Assembly (NCBI GenBank): GCA_019694515.1
Contig: JAIBBU010000012.1
Coordinates: 1-64,000 of the forward strand
Reading direction: 5' to 3'
Length of the DNA: 64,000 nt
Origin: Oligoflexia bacterium
GTDB lineage: Bacteria > Bdellovibrionota_C > UBA2361 > JBGSMV01
Made by a program: the position numbers and the translations under genes. Each line of letters begins with the position of its first letter. The stretch's first letter is position 1. This document shows positions 47,267 through 63,142 of the stretch, one piece after another. The notes beneath the pieces are model-generated. The model saw nothing but the letters and a program-made list of their open reading frames with translations. It had not been told where the DNA came from and searched no databases.

Positions 47267-48169
47267 TCAACTAACCCGCTGATAGAGGCGCTCCAACCAG
47301 CTCCGATCGGCACAAGCATGCCCGCACTCTGCGGAGATCAGAAAATTGGCGGGTTGATAGGCGAGACCTTCACCAAGTTCCGTCAAGCGCGCACGCCCCT
47401 GCTGCAGCGCCTCTTCCATATCCGGGGGCGAGAGCGCCGAAAAGGCGCCAGGCACTAGCACCATGCCGTTTTGGAGCGCTGTGCTCCAGCGCTGCCGGTT
47501 GTCATCTGCCAATATTGCTTGAAGCGCGGAAGCATTGAGCTTAAATGAGAGCAGATCGATCGAGAGCTCCGGCAAAGCAGACACAAGCTCTGCGCAACAG
47601 TGCAGCCCCAGGTAATGCCCTAAACTTCGAAGCTTCGTATGCAAAGCAGACACAGTCTCGAGATAAGCCTCTTTAGACCTGGTCTCCAGTGCGTTCCAGT
47701 GGACAAAGCCCGGCTCATCTAACACACATATCACTCCCTTGGCGTAGGGTGAGAGCTGTTCCAGCTGCCAGTCCAGCTCCCGTCCACTCGCCTCAGCGGC
47801 GCTTCTAAAGCGCTGCTCGAAGGGCCCTTTTAATTGCTCCGAAAAGAGCGCCAGAGTTAGCGGACCGCAACACTGGGATTTAAGCAGCGGCAGACGACCT
47901 GCCACTTTTCGTTTCATTGCAAAAAGCCCCCCTGTCTCGCCGGGCTCATACCCCTGCCACCCGTTCTGCAGAACGCGCTCGGCGCGCGCCAGCATCAATT
48001 CGCGGTCGGAGATTGCGGGTAACTCGGGCCAGAAAGGCACTATCCAAGAACGTGCGAAGATGAAATCAACGGCCTCCACTGGATCGAGGAAGGGCAGGCT
48101 GCCAACTGCAAAGTGAGAGTAACTTACCCGGAGAATGGAGCTCAGCGATTCACGAACAGCGTCAGCCAC
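47267..48169 (-). CDS. Short MetE-C-terminal/UROD-like protein
   Basis: This protein of about 300 residues resembles the C-terminal barrel of cobalamin-independent methionine synthase. It has YSHFAVGSLPFLDPVEAVDF at the start of homology, LGLHCCAE (His/Cys like the MetE zinc site), DLLSFKLNAS where MetE has a zinc-binding Glu (here Lys), and ISAECGHACADRS near the end. One zinc ligand appears lost, so methyl transfer to homocysteine is uncertain; it may act in another methyl- or thiol-transfer step. The start is doubtful: GTG 48169 is 2 bases from the end of RNase P RNA and has no ribosome site. Confidence 0.8.
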   Translation of the reverse strand: MADAVRESLSSILRVSYSHFAVGSLPFLDPVEAVDFIFARSWIVPFWPELPAISDRELMLARAERVLQNGWQGYEPGETGGLFAMKRKVAGRLPLLKSQCCGPLTLALFSEQLKGPFEQRFRSAAEASGRELDWQLEQLSPYAKGVICVLDEPGFVHWNALETRSKEAYLETVSALHTKLRSLGHYLGLHCCAELVSALPELSIDLLSFKLNASALQAILADDNRQRWSTALQNGMVLVPGAFSALSPPDMEEALQQGRARLTELGEGLAYQPANFLISAECGHACADRSWLERLYQRVS

Positions 48170-48171
48170 AA

Positions 48172-48622
48172 GGGAGTCAAGTCATAAGCGGGATTCTGTT
48201 GAGGATTTCTCCCCGACGACCATTCATCTGGGCCTAATGTCGCCATTAAGCTCAAGCGGCTCACCCGGATGCCGAACGCGGGCAGCGTTCTCCGGTTCAA
48301 CCTCAAAGAGGTCAACCCGGTATGCTCCTTACTCGGCCTTGCATTGACTGGGGTTTGCCAGGCCGGTGTGTTACCACACCGCCGGTAGGCTCTTACCCTG
48401 CCGTTTCACCCTTACTCTACCCTTTTTAAGTTCTCCGAGCCTGCAGCCCTCAAGCACTTAAAAAGGCCCTCAAGAACTTAAAAAGGGTAGAGCGGTTTAT
48501 TTTCTGTGGCACTTTCCCCCGGTTACCCGGAGCTGCCGTTAGCAGCCAGCCTGCCCTATAAAGTCCCGACTTTCCTCCACCGCGGCTCGAAAGCTGCGGC
48601 AGCGGTCGTCAACTTGACTCCC
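48172..48622 (-). ncRNA. rnpB: RNase P RNA, bacterial type A
   Basis: This is the catalytic RNA that trims tRNA 5' ends. On the minus strand, GGGAGTCAAG (48622 down to 48613) pairs with CTTGACTCCC (48181 down to 48172) as helix P1. Hallmark blocks are GAGGAAAGTC (CR I) after P1, GGGTGAAACGG (CR II), GTAAGAGC (CR III), and a near-canonical AGAATCCCGCTTA block (CR V) near the 3' end. About 451 nt is on the long side, because of an extended, duplicated P12 arm. It sits 11 bases after the zinc-ribbon gene and 2 bases before the MetE-like start. Confidence 0.95.
48415..48492. repeat. Extended P12 arm of RNase P RNA with tandem duplication
   Basis: A perfect 20-bp inverted repeat joins 48415-48434 with 48473-48492. 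Within the 58 bases at the loop side, a 20-base unit is present twice in tandem (48446-48465 and 48466-48485), differing at one position. The right-hand unit also forms most of the right arm. The arm falls where helix P12 of type A RNase P RNA lies, a place known to vary in length. Confidence 0.8.
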
Positions 48623-49500: not shown

Positions 49501-49574
49501 GGCCCTGTAGCTCAGTTGGTTAGAGCAGCCGGCTCATAACCGGTTGGTCGCTGGTTCAAGTCCAGCCGGGGCCA
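49501..49574 (+). tRNA. tRNA with CAU anticodon, probably tRNA-Ile2 (lysidine)
   Basis: The cloverleaf is complete: acceptor GGCCCTG/CGGGGCC (one G-U), D-arm, anticodon stem GCCGG/CCGGT with loop CTCATAA (anticodon CAT at 49535-49537), and T-arm GCTGG-TTCAAGT-CCAGC, ending in discriminator A. The TTGGTCGCTGGTTCAAGTCC part and the acceptor match E. coli tRNA-Ile2 better than elongator tRNA-Met, so I read it as the Ile tRNA whose C34 becomes lysidine (TilS). The 3' CCA is not encoded. It is followed at once by a structured tandem repeat. Confidence 0.9.
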
Positions 49575-49575
49575 T

Positions 49576-49660
49576 ATATCTGGCATTTTTGCTGACGCAA
49601 AAATCGCCCGGCCTGATATCTGGCATTTTTGCTGACGCAAAAATCGCCCGGCCTGATATC
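49576..49660. repeat. Two exact 40-bp tandem repeats with hairpins, after the tRNA
   Basis: Positions 49581-49620 and 49621-49660 are identical; a partial ATATC copy lies at 49576-49580. Each unit has ATTTTTGC-TGAC-GCAAAAAT, an 8-bp hairpin with a 4-base loop (49585-49604 and 49625-49644). GGC/GCC and the palindrome GATATC surround it, giving a longer interrupted fold. The repeats begin two bases after the tRNA. They may be terminators or a small mobile or att-like structure. Confidence 0.85.
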
Positions 49661-49843
49661 TAGGAGCTCGGATCCTCGCTGGCCCAGGCTCCAGGAAAGG
49701 CATTCCGCCGGCAAAACGTCTCTCCTGACGATTTGATCTGTCATCGCTGTGCGAGCTGCGCAACCTAGCAGACTCCCTTCAGGGCGCTCTAGCCCCACCC
49801 CCAGCCGAAAGTCCAGGCTACGTTCACCCGCTTCCACCAAAAA

Positions 49844-51078: not shown

Positions 51079-53013
51079 TTAAGTTAGCAGGCCGGCCGGC
51101 CGTTCGAGCATTGCATCGACCTTCTTAGCCAGTTCATCCCGCGAAATCGGCTTGGCAAGGAATCCGTCCATTCCTGCCTCGTAGCAGCGCTTCGCATCCT
51201 CTTCCGTTACGCTGGCAGAGAGCGCAATCACCGGCACATGGTTCTTGGTTTGACGCTCCAGCGCCCTTAACTGGCGCGTCGCTTCCAGCCCATCCATTAA
51301 AGGCATATTAATATCCATCAGCACTAGATCAACCTTAAGACTTCGCAACGTGTCCAGGCATTCGATCCCATTATTCGCCACCAAGACTTTGTAGCCTCTC
51401 TTTTCCAGGATGCGTTTGGCCAACGCCTGGTTAACGGCCTGATCTTCGACCACCAAAACTGTCCGAAGATTGTCAGCCGCACGGGGTGGCGCCGGCTTGG
51501 TGTAGGTCTGCGCAAAATCGATCGCATTGGAGCGGGCCGGCACGATACTCAGGTCGCGCTCTACGGAGATAGAAACTTTGAAGATACTCCCCACCCCGAC
51601 CTGGCTGCTTACTGAAACGTCTCCGTGCATAGCCTCCACTAATCGCGAAACAATCGCTAATCCCAAGCCGCTACCGCCAAAATTCAGCCGCGGATCCTTG
51701 ATCTGCTTGAATGGCTTAAAAATGAGCTCCAGCTGTTCCGCGGGAATTCCAATGCCGTTGTCTTCCACGGCGAGCATCAATTGCACCTGCGTATTCGTTT
51801 CGGCTTCGGCTTCAACGCTCTCGATGCTCAAGCGCACCGTGCCGCCTTGCGCTGTAGCTTTGTGCGCATTTCCAATTAGATTCACCAAGATCTGCGAAAT
51901 TCGCCCCACATCGCCAATCAAATGATCAGGGACACTCGGACTAATGCGATGCTCCAACGCCACCCCTTTAGATTTAAAGGAATGCTCGAAGATCTTCATT
52001 GTCCGGCTGATAAAATCCCGCAGCGTAAATTTCGTCGGATGTAATGTAATGCGTGACACCTCGAATTTGGAGAAATCCAAAATGTCATTGATAATGGAGA
52101 GGAGCGAATCCCCCGCGTTCTTGACCGTATTCAACAGGTCACGCTGTTCCGCGTCGAGCGAGGTATCTAAGATTTCATCCGTCATGCCCAAAATTGCATG
52201 CAGCGGCGTTCGCAGCTCATGGCTCATATTAGCAACAAAGAGCGACTTCGCCTTATCAGCAGCTTCGGCGCGATCCTTGGCTTGCCTTAACGATTTGTCG
52301 CGCTCATTCAGCTGCTCGAGCATCACGTTGAAAGCCTGAATCAACTCATTAACTTCATTATCATCAGTGGAGTCGAGGCGCAGGGAAAAATCATTGGTTT
52401 CGGAGACGGTGTGAGCGGCTAAGCGCAATTTCCTGATCGGGTTAATCACCCAAAGCTCTAACTTGTGTCGAAAGAATACTGCGACCAGAATTGAAAGCAC
52501 CAACACGCCAAATGTCAGGGCGAGGATCCAAGCAAGCTGCTGGTACAAGGAATTGGGACTGACCTGAATCAACACCGAGCCCACGATCTCGCCATCTAAG
52601 GTAACCGGCTCGCGATAATTGAACGAATCCCAGGTCCAGATTGCATGCGACAACTGCGGTAATGCACGTTGTACAGGCTGGGTGATCGGAACTCCGAACT
52701 CGGCCAGGGACTTCCCCTGAGGATCCAACAGTGCGGCATAGCGGATTGAATCCCGTTCGTGCAGCGCGGCCAAGACGCGCTCCGCCGCCTCACGGTCGTT
52801 AAATGCCAGCGCCGCGCGCGATGTGCTCGCCACAATCGCGGTGATCGACCGAATCTCTTGCTTAAAGTAACGCAGCGAAGAAGATAAAGTCACCAGCAAG
52901 AACCCGAATAAGCAGGTTAGCACGGTGATGGTAATCGCCAACAAAAATACCCGACTCAAATGTTCGGTAAGAGAATTACTGCCAGGGCGATTGGCGGGTG
53001 TGATTTTCTGCAC
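51079..53013 (-). CDS. CHASE8-type hybrid sensor histidine kinase
   Basis: This is a membrane hybrid kinase of 644 residues. Two transmembrane helices (about 22-45 and 160-182) frame a periplasmic domain whose [32 protein letters not shown] matches the CHASE8 domain of YfiN-like proteins. HAMP (185-245), HisKA (phospho-His265 in SHELRTP), HATPase (N-box [26 protein letters not shown]) and a C-terminal receiver (Asp567 in LMDINMP, Lys621) follow. All key residues are present. It starts at GTG 53013. A YfiR-like protein at 60323 is a plausible partner. Confidence 0.95.
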
Positions 53014-53158: not shown

Positions 53159-54937
53159 TCAGGCCGACTTCTTTTCGACCTCGAGAATCAGCGCCGACTG
53201 CCCTGCAATAAGGGCGCTAGATCGAAGCCGTTTCCGCTCTGTCAGCTGCACCAGCAGGGCCTCTAATTGCCGAGGCTCAACCGGCTTTGACAGATAGCCA
53301 TCCATGCCGCTAGCCATACAGCGCTTTTGATCGTCTTTCATCACAAGCGCGCTGAGCGCATAGATACAGACCTGTCGATTGTCCCCCAGTTCGATCGAGC
53401 GAATTTGCCTGGTGACTTCCAGCCCGTTCATTCCGGGAAGTTGAATGTCCATTAGGATTAGGTCGAATCGGCCTTTTTCCAATCTTTTTAGACATTCCTC
53501 AGCTGAATGGGAGACGGCGACCCGGTGTCCGAGGTTGGTGAGGAGTCGTTTGGTGAGAGAGGCGCTCACATAACTATCTTCGACGACCAGAACATCAAGA
53601 CCTCCAGCGCACAGCTGCGAATTTTTGGCGGGAATGCGCGCACCCGCCGGCAGGGTAAGATGCAGGGCCTCTGAAAAAGGCTGGACTGGGATGAACATCC
53701 TTAAACTAGAAGATTGGCTGGAGGATCTATGAATGACCAACTCGGCTTCGGTCGACACAGCAGCAGCCGCCGATCTCAAAGCTCCAGGGATCTCGCTCAC
53801 AGCTCCGTCCGCGAACACCCGCAACACGATCCTAAAGCCGTCTATAACTCGGTGCTTAATTTTAATACGCACTTTCTTTCGCGGAGCGGCGTCTAATATG
53901 GTCTCGAAAAAGGCACTAAACAGGCGCAGGAGGGCCTGCCGGTCAGCAACAATCCCGTCTGGGACAGAGTCGTCAACGCGACAGCTGAGCTTAACTCCAC
54001 GCACGCCGGCACGTAGTTCAAAAACCTCAAAAACTCGCGACAACATTCCGCGCAGCGCAAACGGGGCCGTTGCGGCTTCACCATCTACTGGCCCGGATGG
54101 CTGCTGCGGCACACCATACACCTCCTGCATCGCGTCCAGGATGGGAAGATTTTCATCCTGCGCAGGCTTCCGCTCCAATAGCGGAGCCAGTCCTGGAAAG
54201 TGTTCCAGAAGTGCCGCAACTTCCGCTGTCGATGCAGATGTTTGGATTGAGCTGTCCGCCAGCAATATCGTTGCGATCTCGTCAATTTGGGGGAGATATG
54301 TACGACCGACTCCATCTGGCCGCGCCTCCACTGTCAGCAAAGGTCGCACTGGCTCTGGAAGTTGGAGCGACCCATCCCTGATTCCATCAATGCGCAGACG
54401 TAGCAGCACGCCTGGATTTCCCTGTACATGCGAGCACTCGCAAACCTCTCCGAGCAGCTCAAACCCCAAACTTTCCTGGTAAAACGACTTTACGCGGGGG
54501 TGCACTACAATGATCCAATCCTGTACGCTAAGCCGAAGGCACCAATGAAATAGCGCTCTCAGGAGTCCCGCACCAACAATGCTGGTATTACCCAATCCGC
54601 TCTTTGGCGCAGGCGTCGCGTGACAACAAGCAAACTTCGTGCTCTCCAAAACCCGGCGTCCTAACCGCCGCAACTCTCGAAGTTTCTCCGGATAAATTGG
54701 ATCACAAGGCAGACCCGCCGCTCCGTCCAGCTGGGCAGTGGCTGTGCCCACCACGCGCTTATCTTGCAATGTCACGAAGGTCGTGGACACCGGCAAGAAA
54801 TCCCTTAGAAAGACCCTTAAGCCCGAGCGACGGGGCGACATTAACCCACTGCGACAATACTCATCGTGCACTAAATGAAGCGCCTGATAAAAATCGGAGA
54901 AATTTCGTACGGGGACAATTTTCAAGGAACTGGGCAT
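53159..54937 (-). CDS. FeeM-like acyltransferase fused to degenerate ATPase and receiver domain
   Basis: This 592-residue protein has an unusual layout. Residues 1-195 look like the GNAT-type core of N-acyl amino acid synthase FeeM: HLVHDEYCRSG, TTFVTLQDKRVVGTATAQLDGAAGLP, LRELRRLGRRVLESTKFA. A middle part (about 295-420) recalls a histidine-kinase ATPase domain (SVPDGIVADRQALLRLF) but lacks the N-box Asn and glycine boxes. The C-terminal receiver (about 447-570) has VVEDS, Asp497 in LMDIQLP and Lys551. I use ATG 54937; TTG 54967 is possible. The FeeM part may make a lipid-amino-acid signal; phosphorylation of the receiver could control it. Confidence 0.85.
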   Translation of the reverse strand: MPSSLKIVPVRNFSDFYQALHLVHDEYCRSGLMSPRRSGLRVFLRDFLPVSTTFVTLQDKRVVGTATAQLDGAAGLPCDPIYPEKLRELRRLGRRVLESTKFACCHATPAPKSGLGNTSIVGAGLLRALFHWCLRLSVQDWIIVVHPRVKSFYQESLGFELLGEVCECSHVQGNPGVLLRLRIDGIRDGSLQLPEPVRPLLTVEARPDGVGRTYLPQIDEIATILLADSSIQTSASTAEVAALLEHFPGLAPLLERKPAQDENLPILDAMQEVYGVPQQPSGPVDGEAATAPFALRGMLSRVFEVFELRAGVRGVKLSCRVDDSVPDGIVADRQALLRLFSAFFETILDAAPRKKVRIKIKHRVIDGFRIVLRVFADGAVSEIPGALRSAAAAVSTEAELVIHRSSSQSSSLRMFIPVQPFSEALHLTLPAGARIPAKNSQLCAGGLDVLVVEDSYVSASLTKRLLTNLGHRVAVSHSAEECLKRLEKGRFDLILMDIQLPGMNGLEVTRQIRSIELGDNRQVCIYALSALVMKDDQKRCMASGMDGYLSKPVEPRQLEALLVQLTERKRLRSSALIAGQSALILEVEKKSA

Positions 54938-55533
54938 AGCGCTTACCACACCACAGGCAATTAACAATTATCAAAAAAATTTGGTCAGAGATCCGTTTTC
55001 GTCCGGATGGGTAAGGTTGGACTAAGATACTATTTAGTGCCGACGATGACTCCGTGATCCCGCGGAAGACTTTTTCTCTCTAAAATTTCAAAACCTGCCT
55101 CACAAAAAGCTGTACATGCTGCCGCCACTTATTGCGCATGCCGCGCCGATTATTCTTTACTGGAAAATACGGAGAATCTAAAGCGGCAGCGGCTATTTTA
55201 AAGATAGCGTGGTTCTGCGTAATAAAAAAACGATTCCGTAACGCAGGCTCAGCGGGAGAATTTGCGAATTGGACACATCTCGAAGTCTGCAGTTGCGTAG
55301 GCATGGGAAAAAGCTTTTACCCTATTTTCATATTGCAACAAAAGTTCGCGCCGGGATTTTACTAGATACATTCCAACAAAAATGTGGTTTCAGTGTCGAC
55401 CCAGCAGCACCGCTGCCTTTATTCGGAAGCCGGCGTAAACGTCGTTTGGAGCGCACAGGTGAATGGCGTTAACAATTCGCAGCCGAGTAAAAAGAAGTTA
55501 GTATCATCCGAACGAAGGGAGCTGCTTGTCCGG
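54938..55533. other. Gene-poor 596-bp spacer
   Basis: No gene I would support lies here. The stretch is AT-richer than its surroundings and contains short open frames on both strands (up to 77 codons) without ribosome sites or protein-like sequence. It must hold the promoter for the FeeM-type gene on the minus strand. Confidence 0.5.
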
Positions 55534-56250
55534 CTAGACTCTAGTTATCAGCCGATAACCCTGACGCCTCACGGCCTCAATCAGAACCGTCGTCGCTAAA
55601 AGTTTTTTTCGAAGCCGCACGATAAAGACATCGATTACACGTGAGGACTTGGCGCTGCCTCGACTGGGGAGTGTCGCAATGAGCTCCGCCCGCGAAACGC
55701 ATTTACCTGAGCGCAGTGCTAACAGCATCAGAATCTCCAGCTCCGATGGACTCAATGCGATTTGGCCGGAAGAAGAATAGACTATCGATTGAAACACATC
55801 GATTTGCAGGTCTCCAATTTTAAGGTAGTTAGGTCCATTATGAGGCCGGACGCGGCGGAAACGCCTGCAAAGTAGAATAATCTTCGTGCCCAGCAGACTC
55901 GGAGAATAACTCTTCAGGACATAATCGTCGGCCCCCTGCTCTAGACACTTCTGAATATCATTCTCTTCAGCGGTGCTACTGTAGACGATAATTGGAAGGG
56001 AAGCGGTGTGGGGATTTGCGCGCAGCTCGCGGCAAGACTCCGTGCACGATTGCCCAGGCACGTTATCAACTACAACCATCGCCGGTTTGTAATGCTCGGC
56101 CGTGCTAAGCAGCTCTGTCCCGTGTTGGATCCAACGAACTTCAAAACCTTGAGCAGCAAGTACGTTCCGAACAACGGTGCCACAGGTGATTTCGTCTTCA
56201 AGCAGAAGCACCTTAATGGGAGCACTAATCAAACGTGGTAAATCTGCCAC
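55534..56250 (-). CDS. OmpR/PhoB-family response regulator
   Basis: This is a two-component regulator of 238 residues. The receiver domain (about 12-125) has the acidic pair in LLLEDE, phospho-acceptor Asp in VVVDNVPG, a Ser/Thr in VYSST and Lys in YVLKSYS. The C-terminal winged helix (about 145-238) has ALSPSELEILMLLALRSGKCVSRAELI, and VIDVFIVRLRKKLLATTVLIEAVRRQGYRL with its transactivation loop and recognition helix. It starts at GTG 56250. No kinase is adjacent on the same transcript; the hybrid kinase at 51079 is a candidate partner. Confidence 0.94.
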   Translation of the reverse strand: MADLPRLISAPIKVLLLEDEITCGTVVRNVLAAQGFEVRWIQHGTELLSTAEHYKPAMVVVDNVPGQSCTESCRELRANPHTASLPIIVYSSTAEENDIQKCLEQGADDYVLKSYSPSLLGTKIILLCRRFRRVRPHNGPNYLKIGDLQIDVFQSIVYSSSGQIALSPSELEILMLLALRSGKCVSRAELIATLPSRGSAKSSRVIDVFIVRLRKKLLATTVLIEAVRRQGYRLITRV

Positions 56251-56398: not shown

Positions 56399-58075
56399 CT
56401 ATCCAAGTCCGTATCTTCCGGGCGCTATAATGCCTCCAGGATCGACTGCTGCCTTAAGCCGGCCGAGAAAGTCAGCAGCAGCGGGGTTCCGGTTTTGCAA
56501 GAATGCTGCCTTGGCAGGATCGCTGCTCGCCCGATAGGGCGTAAAACCAGCGGCAAAATAACCGTTTACCAAGGTCTCGTAACAGCGATCAGCAGCCTCT
56601 GTTTGCCGGGTGTTTTGGGGGTCAAAGAATAATCCCACCGTGCAAACAGCCGTGCGTTCTGTGGGAACGGAAACAGTCGTGTTAAAATCAAAGCCAAACT
56701 TGGCGTGCATTTCTCGCGATAATCGCAGGAACTCCGCCATGCAATCCGCGGTCAAAGGCACCACAGGGGAGCACCAAGCAACCCCGCATTTGTCACGCAC
56801 CGGATTGCGATTAGTTTCAGGCGCGGGCTCTCTCTTCATCCAGTAAGTTCCGAGCATTGGTCCCTCGTTAGGACGCCCCAGGAGCAGATCGAACAGTGCA
56901 AGTCGCGGCTCGATTCGATGCCCCATCACATACTGATACAGACGGGGAAAGCGTCCGGCGGAGCGTGCCAAGCCCGCAGAAATAAACCTTACTGAGGCAT
57001 GTTTACCAAGACGCTTCTTAATATATCTTAGCTCGGGTTTGATAATCTCCTTGCGCCCCCACATCCCGCCAATGCCGTTCCACGCATGAATTTTCCATTT
57101 ACGCATCAAGCTCGCACGGGACGCAGCCGACAGTGCAGGACCAGAGTCTCCCGCACTGAAAGGAAATTGCTGGAAGGAACACAACACTCGCATTTCGTTA
57201 GCGATATGAAGCGATCCCTCCAGATAGCCCTCCATCTTAATCTCCCTAATCGCATCGATTGATCGAATCAGAGATCGATCGTCGGAAAAATTTAGATTCA
57301 ATGCCCCAAGATGCTGCGGCTTGGGCAGCAGCCAAACCCCCATCTTTGTTACGATTCCTAAGTTGGATTGACTAAAAAGCCCGTCGAGAAAAGGCCCCAC
57401 GCCCCATTTATGAAGATAGGTCGAGCGCGAGTTTTCAAATTGTCCGAATCCTGTCGCCAGCAGCTCTCCGTTAGGCAAAACGACCTCTAATCCGGCAAAG
57501 CTTTGAAAATGATCAGCATAGTGTGTAAATCCGTACCCACGTTCTAATGTGTTCGCAATCACACTGGCTGTCGGAGCGGAGCCGGTTACGTCGGAGAAAA
57601 GATGCGGAGCGTGCTGCTCCAGGTAAACACTTAAATCCAGCTGCGTTACTCCGGGTTCGACAACTGCAACGCCCAGCACCGGATCGATTCCCAGAATCTT
57701 GTTCATCCGGCTTAAGTCCACCACCACGTTATGCGCGGAAGAGGGACAGGCCGACCCGTACCCCCAGTTCCGTCCACCACTTACAGGATAAAGCGGGATG
57801 CCGTGCGTGGCCGCGATTGAGACAATGCCTTGAACCTCCACCGCGTTATGCGGGAAGACCGCCGCGCTAACAATTTGGGTACGGCTTCCGGTATCCGCAG
57901 TGTATGGGGCGAGCGCCGCCGACTCCCGCAGCACCCTCTCCTGCCCCAATAGCGCGCCAAGTTTTGTTAACGCTATTAACAAATTTGCAGGACTGCTCTG
58001 TGTTGCCTCCGCTGTGTTAATCATAGTAGTGCTCATATGGTTTGAGACGGTTGAACTGCAAGGGACGTATGCCAC
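56399..58075 (-). CDS. VAO/4-cresol-dehydrogenase-like FAD-linked oxidase
   Basis: This is a flavoenzyme of 558 residues of the vanillyl-alcohol oxidase family, which oxidises para-substituted phenols. The FAD domain has PVSGGRNWGYGSACPSS and ANTLERGYGFTHYADHFQSFAGLEVVLPNGE, close to the PchF/VAO sequences; the substrate domain ends DFLGRLKAAVDPGGIIAPGRYGLG. There is no cytochrome gene beside it, so oxygen or another acceptor may be used. GTG 58075 is shown; ATG 58036 is also possible and neither has a well-placed ribosome site. It is divergent from the TonB receptor gene at 58188. Confidence 0.9.
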   Translation of the reverse strand: MAYVPCSSTVSNHMSTTMINTAEATQSSPANLLIALTKLGALLGQERVLRESAALAPYTADTGSRTQIVSAAVFPHNAVEVQGIVSIAATHGIPLYPVSGGRNWGYGSACPSSAHNVVVDLSRMNKILGIDPVLGVAVVEPGVTQLDLSVYLEQHAPHLFSDVTGSAPTASVIANTLERGYGFTHYADHFQSFAGLEVVLPNGELLATGFGQFENSRSTYLHKWGVGPFLDGLFSQSNLGIVTKMGVWLLPKPQHLGALNLNFSDDRSLIRSIDAIREIKMEGYLEGSLHIANEMRVLCSFQQFPFSAGDSGPALSAASRASLMRKWKIHAWNGIGGMWGRKEIIKPELRYIKKRLGKHASVRFISAGLARSAGRFPRLYQYVMGHRIEPRLALFDLLLGRPNEGPMLGTYWMKREPAPETNRNPVRDKCGVAWCSPVVPLTADCMAEFLRLSREMHAKFGFDFNTTVSVPTERTAVCTVGLFFDPQNTRQTEAADRCYETLVNGYFAAGFTPYRASSDPAKAAFLQNRNPAAADFLGRLKAAVDPGGIIAPGRYGLG

Positions 58076-58187
58076 TACTCCTAAGCAGAATCAAATCGGC
58101 CTACATCTAGCCGTCTAGCGACCCCCTGCAAGCGGAAGCTTGGAAGCGAGCCGCGGTAGATGCGCCTTTTGGACATTTGGTAGAAGC

Positions 58188-60098
58188 ATGAAGAAGATCC
58201 TGTTTGCTCCACTGCTCACCGTTCTCTTAATCACTCACCTCGCCCAAGCTGAGGAGCTTTTCGGCGCAGCCGGAACACCCGCCCCGCTGCCTCCTGATCT
58301 ACGTGAAGTCGGACTGGAAAAACTGCTCAATTTGGACCTGATCGTTACCTCCCCGGGGAGGAAGGAGCAGGCGCTCTCCGATGTGGCATCAGCGACTTTT
58401 GTTATTTCGCAGGAAGACATTGCACGCTCGGGCGCCACTCATGTCGCCGAGCTGCTGCGGTTTGTGCCGGGGGTGAATGTGGCGCGTCTCTCTTCAGGAC
58501 ATTGGGCCGTGAGCGCGCGTGGCTTTAATCAATTATTTGCAAATAAGCTCCTGGTCTTGATCGATGGAGTCAGCGTTTTCTCTCCCACCACCAACGGAGT
58601 CTATTGGGAAACCATCGATCTGCCCCTGCCCGACATTGAGCGAATCGAGGTGGTTAGAGGGCCGGGAGGCTCGCTCTGGGGTTCAAATGCAGTCAACGGC
58701 GTAATTAATATCATTACCAAACACGCGTCACAAACCCATGGCACCCTTCTATCGGGGGGTGGCGGCACACACGAAGAAGGTTTTGGCTTGGTCCGGCAAG
58801 GTGGAAGACTCGGAGAGGACAGCGATTATCGCATTTTTGGGAAATACTCCTCGCGCGCATCGAATCGCACTCCCGAGGACAAAAGCGCATTAGATGACTG
58901 GTCCAGTGGGGCCATGGGATTTCGCCTTGATTCGGCGCTTGAGTCCGGCAGAAACATCTCGGTACAGGCCAATGCCTCGCAGCAAGATGAGAATTATCAA
59001 CCTCTCACGCCAACCTTAGACCCTCCCTATATGGATGCCGAAAAATTTCGGGATGATGGCACCTGGAAAAGCGCCACGGCCTTGACCCAGTGGCAGGAGC
59101 AGCTAAGCCCGGACTCGGACCTCAGCGCGAACTTGAGTTTTCTTTACAAAGAGCGTGCTAGCCGTTTTGTAACATTCGACTACCAAGTCTATACCCTAGA
59201 GATTCAACATCATTATCGTGCCGGCGGCATTCACGATCTTGTCTACGGTGCCGGCTATCGCGCTTTTGCGAATTCGGCCGAGGGATCAGTAGGGCACGAG
59301 GTGGACCCCTCAGGCCGCACCACGGATCTCTACACGGGCTTTCTGCAAGATGAGATTACCGTCGTACCGGAACGCTTCAAGCTTATCGTGGGATCCAAAT
59401 TTGAGCATAATGACCACACCGGGATGGAGATAATGCCTACTATTCGCGGGCTATACACTCCTAATCGGAGCACCACCTTTTGGACAGCAGCTTCGCGCGC
59501 GATCGCATCACCAGCCATTTTCTTTGAGGACACGAGGATCCCTGTGGCGGGATTCCCTGCTCCGGGCGCCCCGCTTACTGCAGTCGCAGAAATAGTAGGC
59601 AATCCCGATCTTGCTTCGGAGCGGCTTCTCGAGTACGAGATCGGGGCTCGGCAGGATATCGACGCCTCTCTCTACCTAGATTTGTCTGCTTTTTATGCTA
59701 GCCACGACAACATTTTTGGACAGGAAGCGGGCGATCCGTTTGTGGCCAATTATGCGGATTCAGGACGACCCGCTCTAATCATACCGCTGATCTTCGGAAA
59801 TACTCTGGAAGGACAATCTTATGGGGTAGAAGCAGCCCTCAATTGGAAAGCGCGATCCAATTGGACCTTAGCTGCCAGCTACACATTCTTCGATGTCGAC
59901 ATATCACTCGCAGGTGGTCAGGACACCGCCAACCGTGATCTGATTGAGGGCGGCTCCCCGCAACATCAAGCTACTTTTTCTTCTTCAGTTGATCTAAGCA
60001 ATCGATGGAGCTTGTACTCGGCGGTTCGCTATGTGGACGAGCTGGGCTACGGGAACATCAATGGATATTTGGACGCGGACGTTAAGCTGGCCTGGTAG
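58188..60098 (+). CDS. TonB-dependent receptor, truncated by an in-frame amber codon
   Basis: This is an outer-membrane receptor for active uptake. A signal peptide (MKKILFAPLLTVLLITHLAQA) precedes a plug domain (about 40-165; ARSGATHVAELLRFVPGVNVARL, NKLLVLIDGVSVF, IERIEVVRGPGGSLWGSNAVNGVINIITK) and barrel strands to residue 636. The TAG at 60096-60098 falls before the last strands; the missing 46 codons are in frame after it (see 60099-60239). ATG 58188 is chosen for the signal peptide; an in-frame ATG at 58140 lies upstream. The ligand is unknown. The YfiR-like gene follows. Confidence 0.92.
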   Translation: MKKILFAPLLTVLLITHLAQAEELFGAAGTPAPLPPDLREVGLEKLLNLDLIVTSPGRKEQALSDVASATFVISQEDIARSGATHVAELLRFVPGVNVARLSSGHWAVSARGFNQLFANKLLVLIDGVSVFSPTTNGVYWETIDLPLPDIERIEVVRGPGGSLWGSNAVNGVINIITKHASQTHGTLLSGGGGTHEEGFGLVRQGGRLGEDSDYRIFGKYSSRASNRTPEDKSALDDWSSGAMGFRLDSALESGRNISVQANASQQDENYQPLTPTLDPPYMDAEKFRDDGTWKSATALTQWQEQLSPDSDLSANLSFLYKERASRFVTFDYQVYTLEIQHHYRAGGIHDLVYGAGYRAFANSAEGSVGHEVDPSGRTTDLYTGFLQDEITVVPERFKLIVGSKFEHNDHTGMEIMPTIRGLYTPNRSTTFWTAASRAIASPAIFFEDTRIPVAGFPAPGAPLTAVAEIVGNPDLASERLLEYEIGARQDIDASLYLDLSAFYASHDNIFGQEAGDPFVANYADSGRPALIIPLIFGNTLEGQSYGVEAALNWKARSNWTLAASYTFFDVDISLAGGQDTANRDLIEGGSPQHQATFSSSVDLSNRWSLYSAVRYVDELGYGNINGYLDADVKLAW

Positions 60099-60239: not shown

Positions 60240-60322
60240 ACCGAGGAAGTTGTGCTATTGCACGGCGACTAGGCACCGCCCGAGCAATCTGCAGCTGTTT
60301 GAGCAGGAGTTCTAAGGGAAAG

Positions 60323-60955
60323 ATGTTAGATACTGGAATTAAAGGGGGGCTGTCTTGGTTAATCTGGTCGCGGAGCGTCTCTGGTTTGCTGGCCCTGCTG
60401 CTCTATTGCTTCCCCGCGCCTAGCTCCGCCAACCCTTTGCCTGAGCGCAAAGAGATCGACGATCGTCCTCATCGCATCAAAGCTGCGATCGTTTTTAATG
60501 TGATGAAGTTCATCCGCTGGCCCCAGGAATCCAAAAATGCAGGCCAACCCTTTAATCTCTGCGTGGTGGGCACCCAAGATCGAGTCTCGCGATACTTTGC
60601 CGAAACATTTCGCGGTCAAACGGTCCGCGGCCGCCCGATTTCGTTGATCGAAATCTCCGATGGCGAGCTCGAAAATTCCAAGTATGGCCCGTGCCAAACC
60701 ATTTACATCTCACGCCACCTCCCTAGTGAACTAAGGCAAAAAGTTACTCAACTGCTGAGTCAAAACATGGGGATACTGACAATTTGCGAGGTCGAGGCCC
60801 CCGGACCGTCTGACTGCATGCTCCAAATATACGAATCAGGGAACAAGGCCAAGCTGGCCCTGGATAGCTCCCGCATAAATCAAATGCAGCTTGCACTTAG
60901 CTCCGAGCTTCTTTCCCTAGCCGTCGATGTCTCACACCCAGAAAGGAGCGAATAG
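60323..60955 (+). CDS. YfiR-like (DUF4154) periplasmic protein
   Basis: This is an exported protein of about 210 residues. A hydrophobic signal (SGLLALLLYCFPAPSSA) is followed by the YfiR-family domain: HRIKAAIVFNVMKFIRWP, FNLCVVGTQDRVSRYF, GPCQTIYISRHLP, GILTICEV and LALDSSRINQMQLALSSELLSLA. YfiR binds the periplasmic domain of YfiN in the YfiBNR system. Here it follows a TonB receptor, a frequent pairing, and could act on the CHASE8 kinase at 51079. ATG 60323 has AAGGGA five bases upstream and replaces an upstream in-frame TTG (60299). Confidence 0.9.
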   Translation: MLDTGIKGGLSWLIWSRSVSGLLALLLYCFPAPSSANPLPERKEIDDRPHRIKAAIVFNVMKFIRWPQESKNAGQPFNLCVVGTQDRVSRYFAETFRGQTVRGRPISLIEISDGELENSKYGPCQTIYISRHLPSELRQKVTQLLSQNMGILTICEVEAPGPSDCMLQIYESGNKAKLALDSSRINQMQLALSSELLSLAVDVSHPERSE

Positions 60956-60960
60956 TCGCC

Positions 60961-62241
60961 ATGGCACGTATTTTATTCATCAGCGAAGCGATGACATTAA
61001 CCCATGTGGTACGCTCGCATGTGTTAGGCTCTCACCTTGCCCAACAGGGACATGCGGTGACGCTGGCCGCTGGAAAATACTTTGACCGTCTATTCAAAAC
61101 ATTTCCCGGCGAGCGGCGAGATTTGCGATCCTCCCGTCATCCCGCGGATTTTCGCACGATTCTCGGCAAGGGTGGAGTCATCTTTGACTACGAAGTGCTC
61201 TCAGGTTTTTTGAGCGAAGAGCTCCAGCTATTCAAAGAGCTCAAGCCCGACTTGGTGGTCGGAGATTTGCGTCCGTCGCTGGCCGTCAGCACTCGACTTG
61301 CGGCGCTCCCGTTAATTACCATTACGAACGCTTATTGGAGCAGACATCTCCGTGGTCAATATTTTCCCCCACCCTGCCTTGACGCTGTGGCTGGACTCAA
61401 TTTAGGGAGATTGGGGGGCCCCGCCGTTCTCATGGCCCTCAAGCTGCTCAACGCAGCGATCCTCCCGGGAGTCCTGAAGGCGCAGGGGGCGGGACTTAAC
61501 CGTCTCCGGCTGGAGCATCGACTTGATCCGTTTGAGCATTATCTGGACGGCTTCACCTTTGGTGATGAGATTTGCTTTACTGACGCACAGGAACTTTTTC
61601 CGCTGCAAAATGCTCCCGCAAATCACAACTTTATTGGTCCGATTTCATGGTCACCGAGCGTAAACCTGCCTCCCTGGTGGGAGGAGGTGCGCACGCGAAG
61701 GCCTCTGATCTATGTGAACCTCGGTTCCTCGGGCGATGCCCGCGCCCTGGCGCTGGTCCTCGATACTCTGGCCGGGTTTGACTGCACAGTGGCCGCTGCC
61801 AGCTCTGGCACACCATTAAAGCTGGGCCGCAGCAGCAACATTCACCTGGCTGACTACCTTCCGGGCGACGAAATTTTGAAGTCCGCAACCTTGGCGATCT
61901 GTAATGGCGGCAGCCCGGCCTGCTACCAGGCGCTGTCGAAGGGAGTACCTATCATCGCTATCCCGACCAATATGGATCAGCTGCTCTTTTCGCACTGCCT
62001 GCAGAAGCATGGGTTCGGGATAAGCTTGCGGTCCGATACGCTCCGACCGTCACAAATACGGAGTGCAATTTCGAGGCTGCTACGAAACGGGGCACGCGAC
62101 CGCTATCGCACCCTAGCGGCGCACCTCAGCGCCTGTGAACCAGAACGCCAATTTCAACGAATTGCGCAGCGACTCCTGTCAAGTTCCACCTTAACTGCAC
62201 CAGAGAACTCGGAAGAATGGAGGAAACAGCATGCCGGTTAG
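60961..62241 (+). CDS. GT1-family (UGT/MGT-like) glycosyltransferase
   Basis: This is a GT-B-fold glycosyltransferase of 426 residues. The N-terminus RILFISEAMTLTHVVRSHVLGSHLAQQGHAVTLAAG and the C-terminal donor site (NIHLADYLPGDEIL, CNGGSPACYQALSKGVPIIAIPTNMDQLLFSH) match the UDP-glucuronosyl/glycosyltransferase family, which glycosylates lipids, sterols, antibiotics or other small molecules. The His in the usual acceptor site near the start is replaced by the LTHV segment. AAGGAG lies about 12 bases before ATG 60961. Its end overlaps the methyltransferase by 11 bases. Confidence 0.9.
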   Translation: MARILFISEAMTLTHVVRSHVLGSHLAQQGHAVTLAAGKYFDRLFKTFPGERRDLRSSRHPADFRTILGKGGVIFDYEVLSGFLSEELQLFKELKPDLVVGDLRPSLAVSTRLAALPLITITNAYWSRHLRGQYFPPPCLDAVAGLNLGRLGGPAVLMALKLLNAAILPGVLKAQGAGLNRLRLEHRLDPFEHYLDGFTFGDEICFTDAQELFPLQNAPANHNFIGPISWSPSVNLPPWWEEVRTRRPLIYVNLGSSGDARALALVLDTLAGFDCTVAAASSGTPLKLGRSSNIHLADYLPGDEILKSATLAICNGGSPACYQALSKGVPIIAIPTNMDQLLFSHCLQKHGFGISLRSDTLRPSQIRSAISRLLRNGARDRYRTLAAHLSACEPERQFQRIAQRLLSSSTLTAPENSEEWRKQHAG

Positions 62242-63142
62242 TGACTATGAGCGCTGCGATCTTTGTCAGGAACAATGCGGTTTTGATCGCGCCCAGGAGG
62301 TACGCCGCGTCAATTGCCATGTGCGTAGCCACCGCCAAGACATTTTCACAGTTTGGCGCTGTCCCAGCTGCAGCAGCCTGCATTCCAAGGAAGCGGTCGA
62401 TTTAGCCAAGTACTACGCCGACTACCCGTTAAAGAAACACAAGCCTACTATTCACACCCATATTGCCTATCGTAATCGCCATCGCTTGCTGAAGCGCTGG
62501 GGCCTCGGCGCTAATAACTCGATTTTAGATTTCGGCTGCGGCACCGGACTTTTCGTGAAATACATGCGACAGCGCGGATACCAGGTTAGCGGATTTGATG
62601 CTTTCGTCCCGGAATTTTCCGACTCTCAAGCTCTGGCTCGTAACTATGACGCGGTTCTTTCCTTCGACGTAATCGAGCACCTTGATCGTCCCGCCGAGCT
62701 TTTCCAACAGCTCTTTGATCTAACTGCCCCGGGAGGACTGCTAGTAGTCGGAACCCCCGATGCCTCCGGCTTGGACCTGGGGGCCAAAATCCCTCCCGTG
62801 GAGCTCTCTCAACCCTTCCACCGGCACATTCTCTCGGAGCAAGCACTAATTCAGATCGCAAAACGCTTCGATCTTATCCCTGAATTTGCGTTCAGACGTT
62901 CCTATTTCGACTCCTTGATTCCAACCGTAAATATGCGCTTTATGTGGGCGTATCTGAATGCTTCCGGGGGCATGCTGGACTCCATGGTCGAACCAATTAA
63001 TTGGGGACGCGTTTTACGCTCTCCGCGGTTAATTTTCTATGCCTTGGCGGGATACTTTTTGTACGAACCTGGGAACATGATCATTGCGTTTCGAAAGCCG
63101 CACGCTGAAGCTCTCGAGGTTCGACGCGCTGGCAATCAATAG
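62231..63142 (+). CDS. SAM-dependent methyltransferase with N-terminal zinc-finger-like segment
   Basis: This is a class I methyltransferase of 303 residues. An N-terminal Cys-rich segment (CDLCQEQC, CPSCSS) may bind zinc. The SAM site follows (SILDFGCGTGLFVKYMRQRGYQVSGFDAF; FDVIEHLDRPAELFQQLFDLTAPGGLLVVGTPD), and a hydrophobic stretch lies near the C-terminus. ATG 62231 has GGAGG at 62219-62223 with a 7-base spacer and overlaps the glycosyltransferase by 11 bases, so the pair is coupled. They may together decorate the same glycan or small molecule. Confidence 0.92.
   Translation: MPVSDYERCDLCQEQCGFDRAQEVRRVNCHVRSHRQDIFTVWRCPSCSSLHSKEAVDLAKYYADYPLKKHKPTIHTHIAYRNRHRLLKRWGLGANNSILDFGCGTGLFVKYMRQRGYQVSGFDAFVPEFSDSQALARNYDAVLSFDVIEHLDRPAELFQQLFDLTAPGGLLVVGTPDASGLDLGAKIPPVELSQPFHRHILSEQALIQIAKRFDLIPEFAFRRSYFDSLIPTVNMRFMWAYLNASGGMLDSMVEPINWGRVLRSPRLIFYALAGYFLYEPGNMIIAFRKPHAEALEVRRAGNQ

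Follow-up and report, generated by a model that had tools for sequence, protein, structure and literature searches.

Enzymes that synthesise acyl-type metabolites and signals are as a rule controlled through transcription, or by a receiver domain that acts in trans, as in the RpfF/RpfC pair. A reading frame in an Oligoflexia bacterium raises the question of whether such an enzyme can carry a kinase-derived part within its own chain and, if so, what this part does. The frame lies in a stretch of 64,000 nucleotides (contig JAIBBU010000012.1, positions 1 to 64,000; hereafter the window), and an earlier reading of the letters alone had described it as a FeeM-like synthase joined to a degenerate kinase ATPase and a receiver, that is, as a signal-making enzyme switched by phosphorelay. 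The gene, its parts and its neighbours are as follows.

51079-53013, minus strand: hybrid histidine kinase (CHASE8-HAMP-HisKA-HATPase-REC) with complete catalytic motifs (Pfam and motif check)
53159-54937, minus strand: fusion of FeeM, pseudo-HATPase and receiver, 592 aa (frame, Pfam, profile and model)
54353-54937, minus strand: residues 1-195, FeeM-type N-acyl amino acid synthase domain with the GNAT/AHL-synthase fold (PF21926 and 2g0b matches)
54068-54352, minus strand: residues 196-290, helical linker (profile match and predicted helices)
53618-54067, minus strand: residues 291-440, degenerate histidine-kinase CA (HATPase) domain and linker, without H-, N-, G1- or G2-box (hhalign, PDB profile, Foldseek)
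53162-53617, minus strand: residues 441-592, receiver and C-terminal tail (PF00072, residue table)
55534-56250, minus strand: OmpR/PhoB-type response regulator, also in the G003 locus
56399-58075, minus strand: VAO/p-cresol-methylhydroxylase-like flavin oxidase (PF01565, FAD_binding_4; 1dii match)
58140-60098, plus strand: TonB-dependent receptor, also in G014
60299-60955, plus strand: YfiR/HmsC-like periplasmic protein (PF13689, 8.3e-28), also in G014
60961-62241, plus strand: UGT/EryCIII-like glycosyltransferase, in all four of the loci that extend far enough
62231-63142, plus strand: SAM methyltransferase, also in G041

Reading frame and domain order

The gene is a single frame at the coordinates first given, but on the minus strand, running from an ATG at 54937 to a stop that ends at 53159 and coding for 592 residues with no internal stop; the plus strand across 53159-54937 is stop-rich. 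Its codon-position composition is even along the frame and resembles that of the adjoining genes. Beyond the window four orthologues were found, in genomes of the same uncultured bacterial class, three of which continue into a receiver or a receiver remnant and one of which stops past the ATPase-like part. An assembly or frameshift artefact uniting two unrelated genes, a danger that the original prediction had itself named and that metagenome-assembled genomes do carry, has next to no probability and was ruled out, because four further genomes have the same order: the five genomes were separately binned, belong to different genera and share low identity, and coding composition is similar along the whole frame. 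Pfam, profile comparison, the structure model and the orthologues together uphold the order of a FeeM-like part, a degenerate kinase-ATPase-like part and a receiver, and the expectation that no described protein has this order was borne out in the literature searched. The order of the domains is real and conserved and has apparently not been described before; the fusion is a variant of the FeeM family and not a new kind of system. In the 596-base gap at 54938-55533 we found no recognisable acyl carrier protein gene and no RNA element (Rfam), promoter and terminator scans scored no higher than shuffles, and no exosortase or PEP-CTERM genes were recognised by eye within the window.

FeeM homology of the N-terminus, on whose presence within residues 1-195 the prediction had been staked, is supported by both the sequence and the predicted fold. 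Pfam PF21926 matches residues 18-181 well above its curated cut-off (108 bits against 27; 4.4e-31), profile A3 matches 2g0b at 1.1e-11, and Foldseek aligns the AlphaFold model, of moderate confidence (pLDDT 62 for the whole protein; a modest 60 for the middle alone), with the FeeM crystal structure 2G0B (E 1e-11, TMt 0.82). The likeness to FeeM extends to family score, fold, Glu98 and the [HN]P.. loop; FeeM itself is a single domain of ~200 aa, to which the fusion adds a 400-residue kinase-derived tail. Among the near-invariant FeeM positions, Thr65, Gly75, Pro77, Glu98, Pro147 and most others are retained in the window copy, and the near-invariant His149 is replaced by Val, a position held by His in 13 of 14 single-domain FeeM sequences and in the other fusions. 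Because of Val149, and of the variation that other fusion members have at other conserved FeeM positions, synthase activity could be altered or lost in this clade. The LuxI-type AHL synthase family PF00765 gave no match to the window protein at E<=1 (and only 0.027 with the G014 orthologue), so that identity as an AHL synthase is ruled out. The linker that follows, with helices predicted at residues 218-274, is partly common with the C-terminal extension of the single-domain FeeM proteins of the class; profile A2 reaches column 242-257 in those of G039 and G004.

The middle of the protein is a decayed kinase core, descended from a histidine kinase CA domain, and here the proposed loss of the N- and G-boxes was confirmed. 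Pfam finds nothing at about residues 290-418, HisKA and HATPase_c being absent from the protein. In columns 283-376, a profile built from the five orthologues finds histidine kinases of the same genomes, down to 8e-14, and hhalign of this profile against the cores of the five adjoining hybrid kinases gave a probability of 97.5 and an E-value of 7.2e-12 over 140 columns. Helices and strands are predicted in the sequence known from an HATPase (pLDDT about 60), a Foldseek search with the isolated middle gave histidine kinases for all of its 50 best matches, and a PDB profile search returned, with weak to moderate E-values, hybrid kinases together with the atypical kinases RetS and DivL. Asn378 and Asn382 in the N-box of the neighbouring kinase are replaced by Ala and Thr in the fusion (window segment ADRQALLRLFSAFFETILDAA), and the DxGxG and GxGLG motifs are absent from the middle. 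The phospho-acceptor helix is missing, its place being taken by the FeeM part and the helical extension. As the H-, N- and G-boxes are all absent, an active kinase is ruled out. The full model aligns over 483 columns with the hybrid kinase ShkA (6QRJ), in which a CA domain likewise precedes a receiver; unlike ShkA, RetS and DivL, the fusion has no phospho-acceptor helix with H-box and no N- or G-boxes, and its input half is an acyltransferase.

The C-terminal receiver is truly fused and complete, as had been described (PF00072 on residues 449-561, 87 bits, 1.3e-24), and in the window copy it is canonical, with Glu453-Asp454, Asp497, Ser529 and Lys551 all present. The receivers of the orthologues lack the canonical set of phosphorylation residues: the phospho-acceptor, Asp in the window copy (G000), is Glu in G014 and in G041 and Ala in G042, and G003 has no receiver. 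Since the Asp occurs in the window copy only, phosphorylation is not a conserved function of the family, and the G003 orthologue implies that the receiver is dispensable somewhere. The best match of the fused receiver in its whole genome is the receiver of the neighbouring kinase (44% identity, 1.5e-26), and its identity to the other fused receivers is only 14-21%, the pattern that descent of the tail from a hybrid kinase, followed by faster decay in the relatives, would produce. A recent receiver swap from the neighbouring kinase was considered and rejected: against this 44%, the kinase receivers at the other loci still reach 38-39%, and as kinase receivers differ similarly among themselves (37-52%), a slowly changing window copy and decaying relatives account for the identities equally well. 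PADLOC matches were confined to the receiver and kinase regions.

Distribution and neighbouring genes

A search for the same domain order across genomes, which the original prediction had proposed, found it in five of the 46 genomes of the class that were searched: G000, G003 and G014 belong to the window's own order, and G041 and G042 share a family that lies outside it. The five fusions group as a single clade in the FeeM-domain tree (support 84/82; recovered in 85% of bootstrap trees), and none of 500 label shuffles was as clustered. The search with PF21926 covered about 1,400 whole genomes in total; in the roughly 1,360 of other groups, no FeeM-receiver fusion occurred among the long frames inspected, and none was found in plasmids. 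When a single degenerate peptide pattern, too limited in sensitivity to catch divergent members, was run against the contigs of 84,980 GTDB species genomes, it returned three loci, all of them already known.

The long FeeM-like frames inspected outside the class were of the types GNAT-aminotransferase, PilZ-PilZ-GNAT and GNAT-cNMP. A PilZ-PilZ-FeeM-like GNAT fusion (L071; G260, contig C24, 1297-2736) may be a c-di-GMP-responsive acyltransferase, and four loci (L085, L086, L087 and L088, in G494, G472 and G480) have a FeeM-like GNAT followed by what by eye appears to be a cyclic-nucleotide-binding domain. These resemble the present fusion in that an acyltransferase has a built-in signal-responsive domain, and differ from it in the nature of that domain and in their weaker FeeM scores. 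Several genomes outside the class encode a weakly FeeM-like GNAT joined to a domain that by eye is class-V aminotransferase-like (L010, L072, L074, L075, L093 and L094).

The fusion gene has a constant partner. A CHASE8 hybrid kinase with its catalytic residues kept adjoins it at each of the five loci, its start overlapping the fusion stop by 4 bases in G014 and following after a gap of 27 bases in G041; in G003 one OmpR gene stands between the two, and in G042 the kinase receiver runs off the contig. The OmpR-type regulator is present in two loci, those of G000 and G003, and was not found in the flanks of G014 or G041.

Each of the four loci with a sufficiently long contig has the VAO/PCMH-like oxidase and the glycosyltransferase, which together look like a biosynthetic route to a decorated N-acyl amino acid. 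A match at 2.5e-72 links the oxidase to p-cresol methylhydroxylase (PDB 1dii), and a residue alignment shows that the phenolate-binding residues of that enzyme, Tyr95, Tyr473 and Arg474, are kept in every copy that covers these positions. No other FeeM gene is present in the window's genome.

The acyl-oxazolone route of the oxz/tyz clusters combines ThiF and a nitroreductase with a FeeM-fold acyltransferase (PMC10404671), and a related gene set has been proposed for the stieleriacines (PMC7293339). The fusion loci resemble both in that an aromatic amino acid would be N-acylated by a FeeM-like enzyme encoded beside a flavin oxidase. They differ from oxz/tyz in the absence of ThiF (neither the window nor L023-L026 has a homologue), in a VAO/PCMH-like oxidase, and in the added glycosyltransferase and two-component genes. 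Five single-domain FeeM loci of the class do have ThiF homologues, two of them apparently as ThiF-nitroreductase fusions, and no CHASE8 hybrid kinase was found in the stretches covered around these five, two of which lie on short contigs. The fusion loci therefore constitute a distinct type of cluster, and their oxidase is a candidate tailoring enzyme for N-acyl tyrosines unlike the ThiF/nitroreductase route of oxz/tyz.

G003 holds a second FeeM locus (L034; contig C28, 3629-9074) with a single-domain FeeM, an O-methyltransferase, a VAO-like oxidase and a ThiF-nitroreductase fusion, which by its gene content is an oxazolone-type cluster with an additional phenol oxidase. In the fusion locus of the same genome (L026; contig C22), a tryptophan-halogenase-like flavoprotein (PF04820; 16166-17851) directly adjoins the VAO-like oxidase, so that the G003 product may be halogenated.

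Possible roles of the tail

The reading that we prefer, and to which we give an even chance, is that the protein is a synthase of N-acyl amino acids, probably of N-acyl tyrosine, whose inherited hybrid-kinase tail docks to the adjacent kinase within a biosynthetic cluster. The protein would consist of a FeeM-type synthase and a second-hand hybrid-kinase tail, CA-like part plus receiver, with the phospho-acceptor helix missing. Its FeeM part would take the acyl chain of an acyl carrier and join it to an amino acid; tyrosine is the most likely one, because the neighbouring enzyme is phenol-oxidising. The tail would serve as a docking and regulatory module with which the CHASE8 hybrid kinase next door would retain the synthase, position it or adjust it allosterically, for the most part through contact between the proteins. 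Such contact is a better candidate than phosphorylation for the function that the family has in common, because the receiver Asp varies among orthologues. In the window copy the canonical receiver may additionally be phosphorylated by the adjacent kinase. The N-acyl product would then be oxidised at its phenol side chain by the VAO/PCMH-like flavoenzyme and glycosylated, and here perhaps also methylated. The contact itself we infer from gene adjacency. Val149, the lack of a recognisable acyl carrier protein gene in the upstream gap, the G003 orthologue without a receiver and the modest models (pLDDT 60-62) count against this reading. It suggests that lipid production is wired directly to environmental sensing, and with the tail in the same chain and the kinase conserved beside it, control of lipid biosynthesis by contact can be put to a direct test on only two proteins.

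The nearest parallel that is known comes from RpfC: its receiver binds the DSF synthase RpfF and represses it through protein contact in which phosphorelay is not involved (PMC4504480). As in the fusion, a fatty-acyl signal synthase is tied to a hybrid-kinase receiver, and the structures that Foldseek matches to the model include the RpfF:RpfC receiver complex 3M6M, as one receiver among hundreds. The likeness is one of analogy only: RpfF is of the crotonase family and binds RpfC in trans, whereas the fusion has the FeeM fold, a covalently attached receiver and a second, complete hybrid kinase alongside.

The strongest competitor, possible if rather doubtful, keeps the phosphorelay: in the window copy the adjacent hybrid kinase would phosphorylate Asp497 and so turn the FeeM domain on or off. 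Every residue that this needs is canonical in the window receiver, a complete hybrid kinase adjoins, and of all receivers in the genome it is that kinase's to which the fused one is closest. Across the family, however, the Asp has become Glu, Glu or Ala, or the receiver has gone, and as the Asp is not conserved, a phosphorelay would be ancestral and since lost, or specific to this lineage. The proposal of a signal-making enzyme switched by phosphorelay therefore stands only in part: FeeM homology, the fused receiver and the hybrid kinase in five of five loci agree with it, and phosphorelay is ruled out as a mechanism common to the family. A signalling role for the product would likewise be a matter of interpretation, as the neighbouring genes look biosynthetic.

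Two further arrangements appear unlikely, and to a similar degree. The FeeM domain might be a former enzyme that now senses acyl chains or N-acyl amino acids, the protein acting as a regulator of the hybrid kinase. The change of His149 to Val in the window copy, the relaxed conservation across the fusion clade and the location of the FeeM domain at a kinase input position would all fit, but Glu98 and most conserved FeeM positions are retained, an oxidase and a glycosyltransferase persist with the fusion in four loci, and the window's genome has no other FeeM gene to feed them. Alternatively, the synthase might be, physically and allosterically, a subunit of the kinase, which would sense the decorated product through its CHASE8 domain, the TonB receptor and the YfiR parts, contact by the pseudo-kinase/receiver tail replacing phosphorylation. 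If true, one complex would govern both the making and the perceiving of an N-acyl amino acid derivative from one locus.

Most improbable seems a role of the receiver as phosphate sink or decoy, in which it would tune the branch from the kinase to the OmpR regulator and leave synthesis itself unregulated. The clustered OmpR regulator in G000 and G003 and the canonical window receiver would suit such a role; the degenerate receivers of three relatives cannot be sinks, and the flanks of G014 and G041 offer no OmpR gene for it.

Elsewhere in the window, a bacterial RNase P RNA (class A) lies at 48169-48621 on the minus strand and a tRNA-Met at 49501-49574 on the plus strand. Just past the latter, at about 49560-49760, a repeated short segment gives a repeated peptide in spurious frames.
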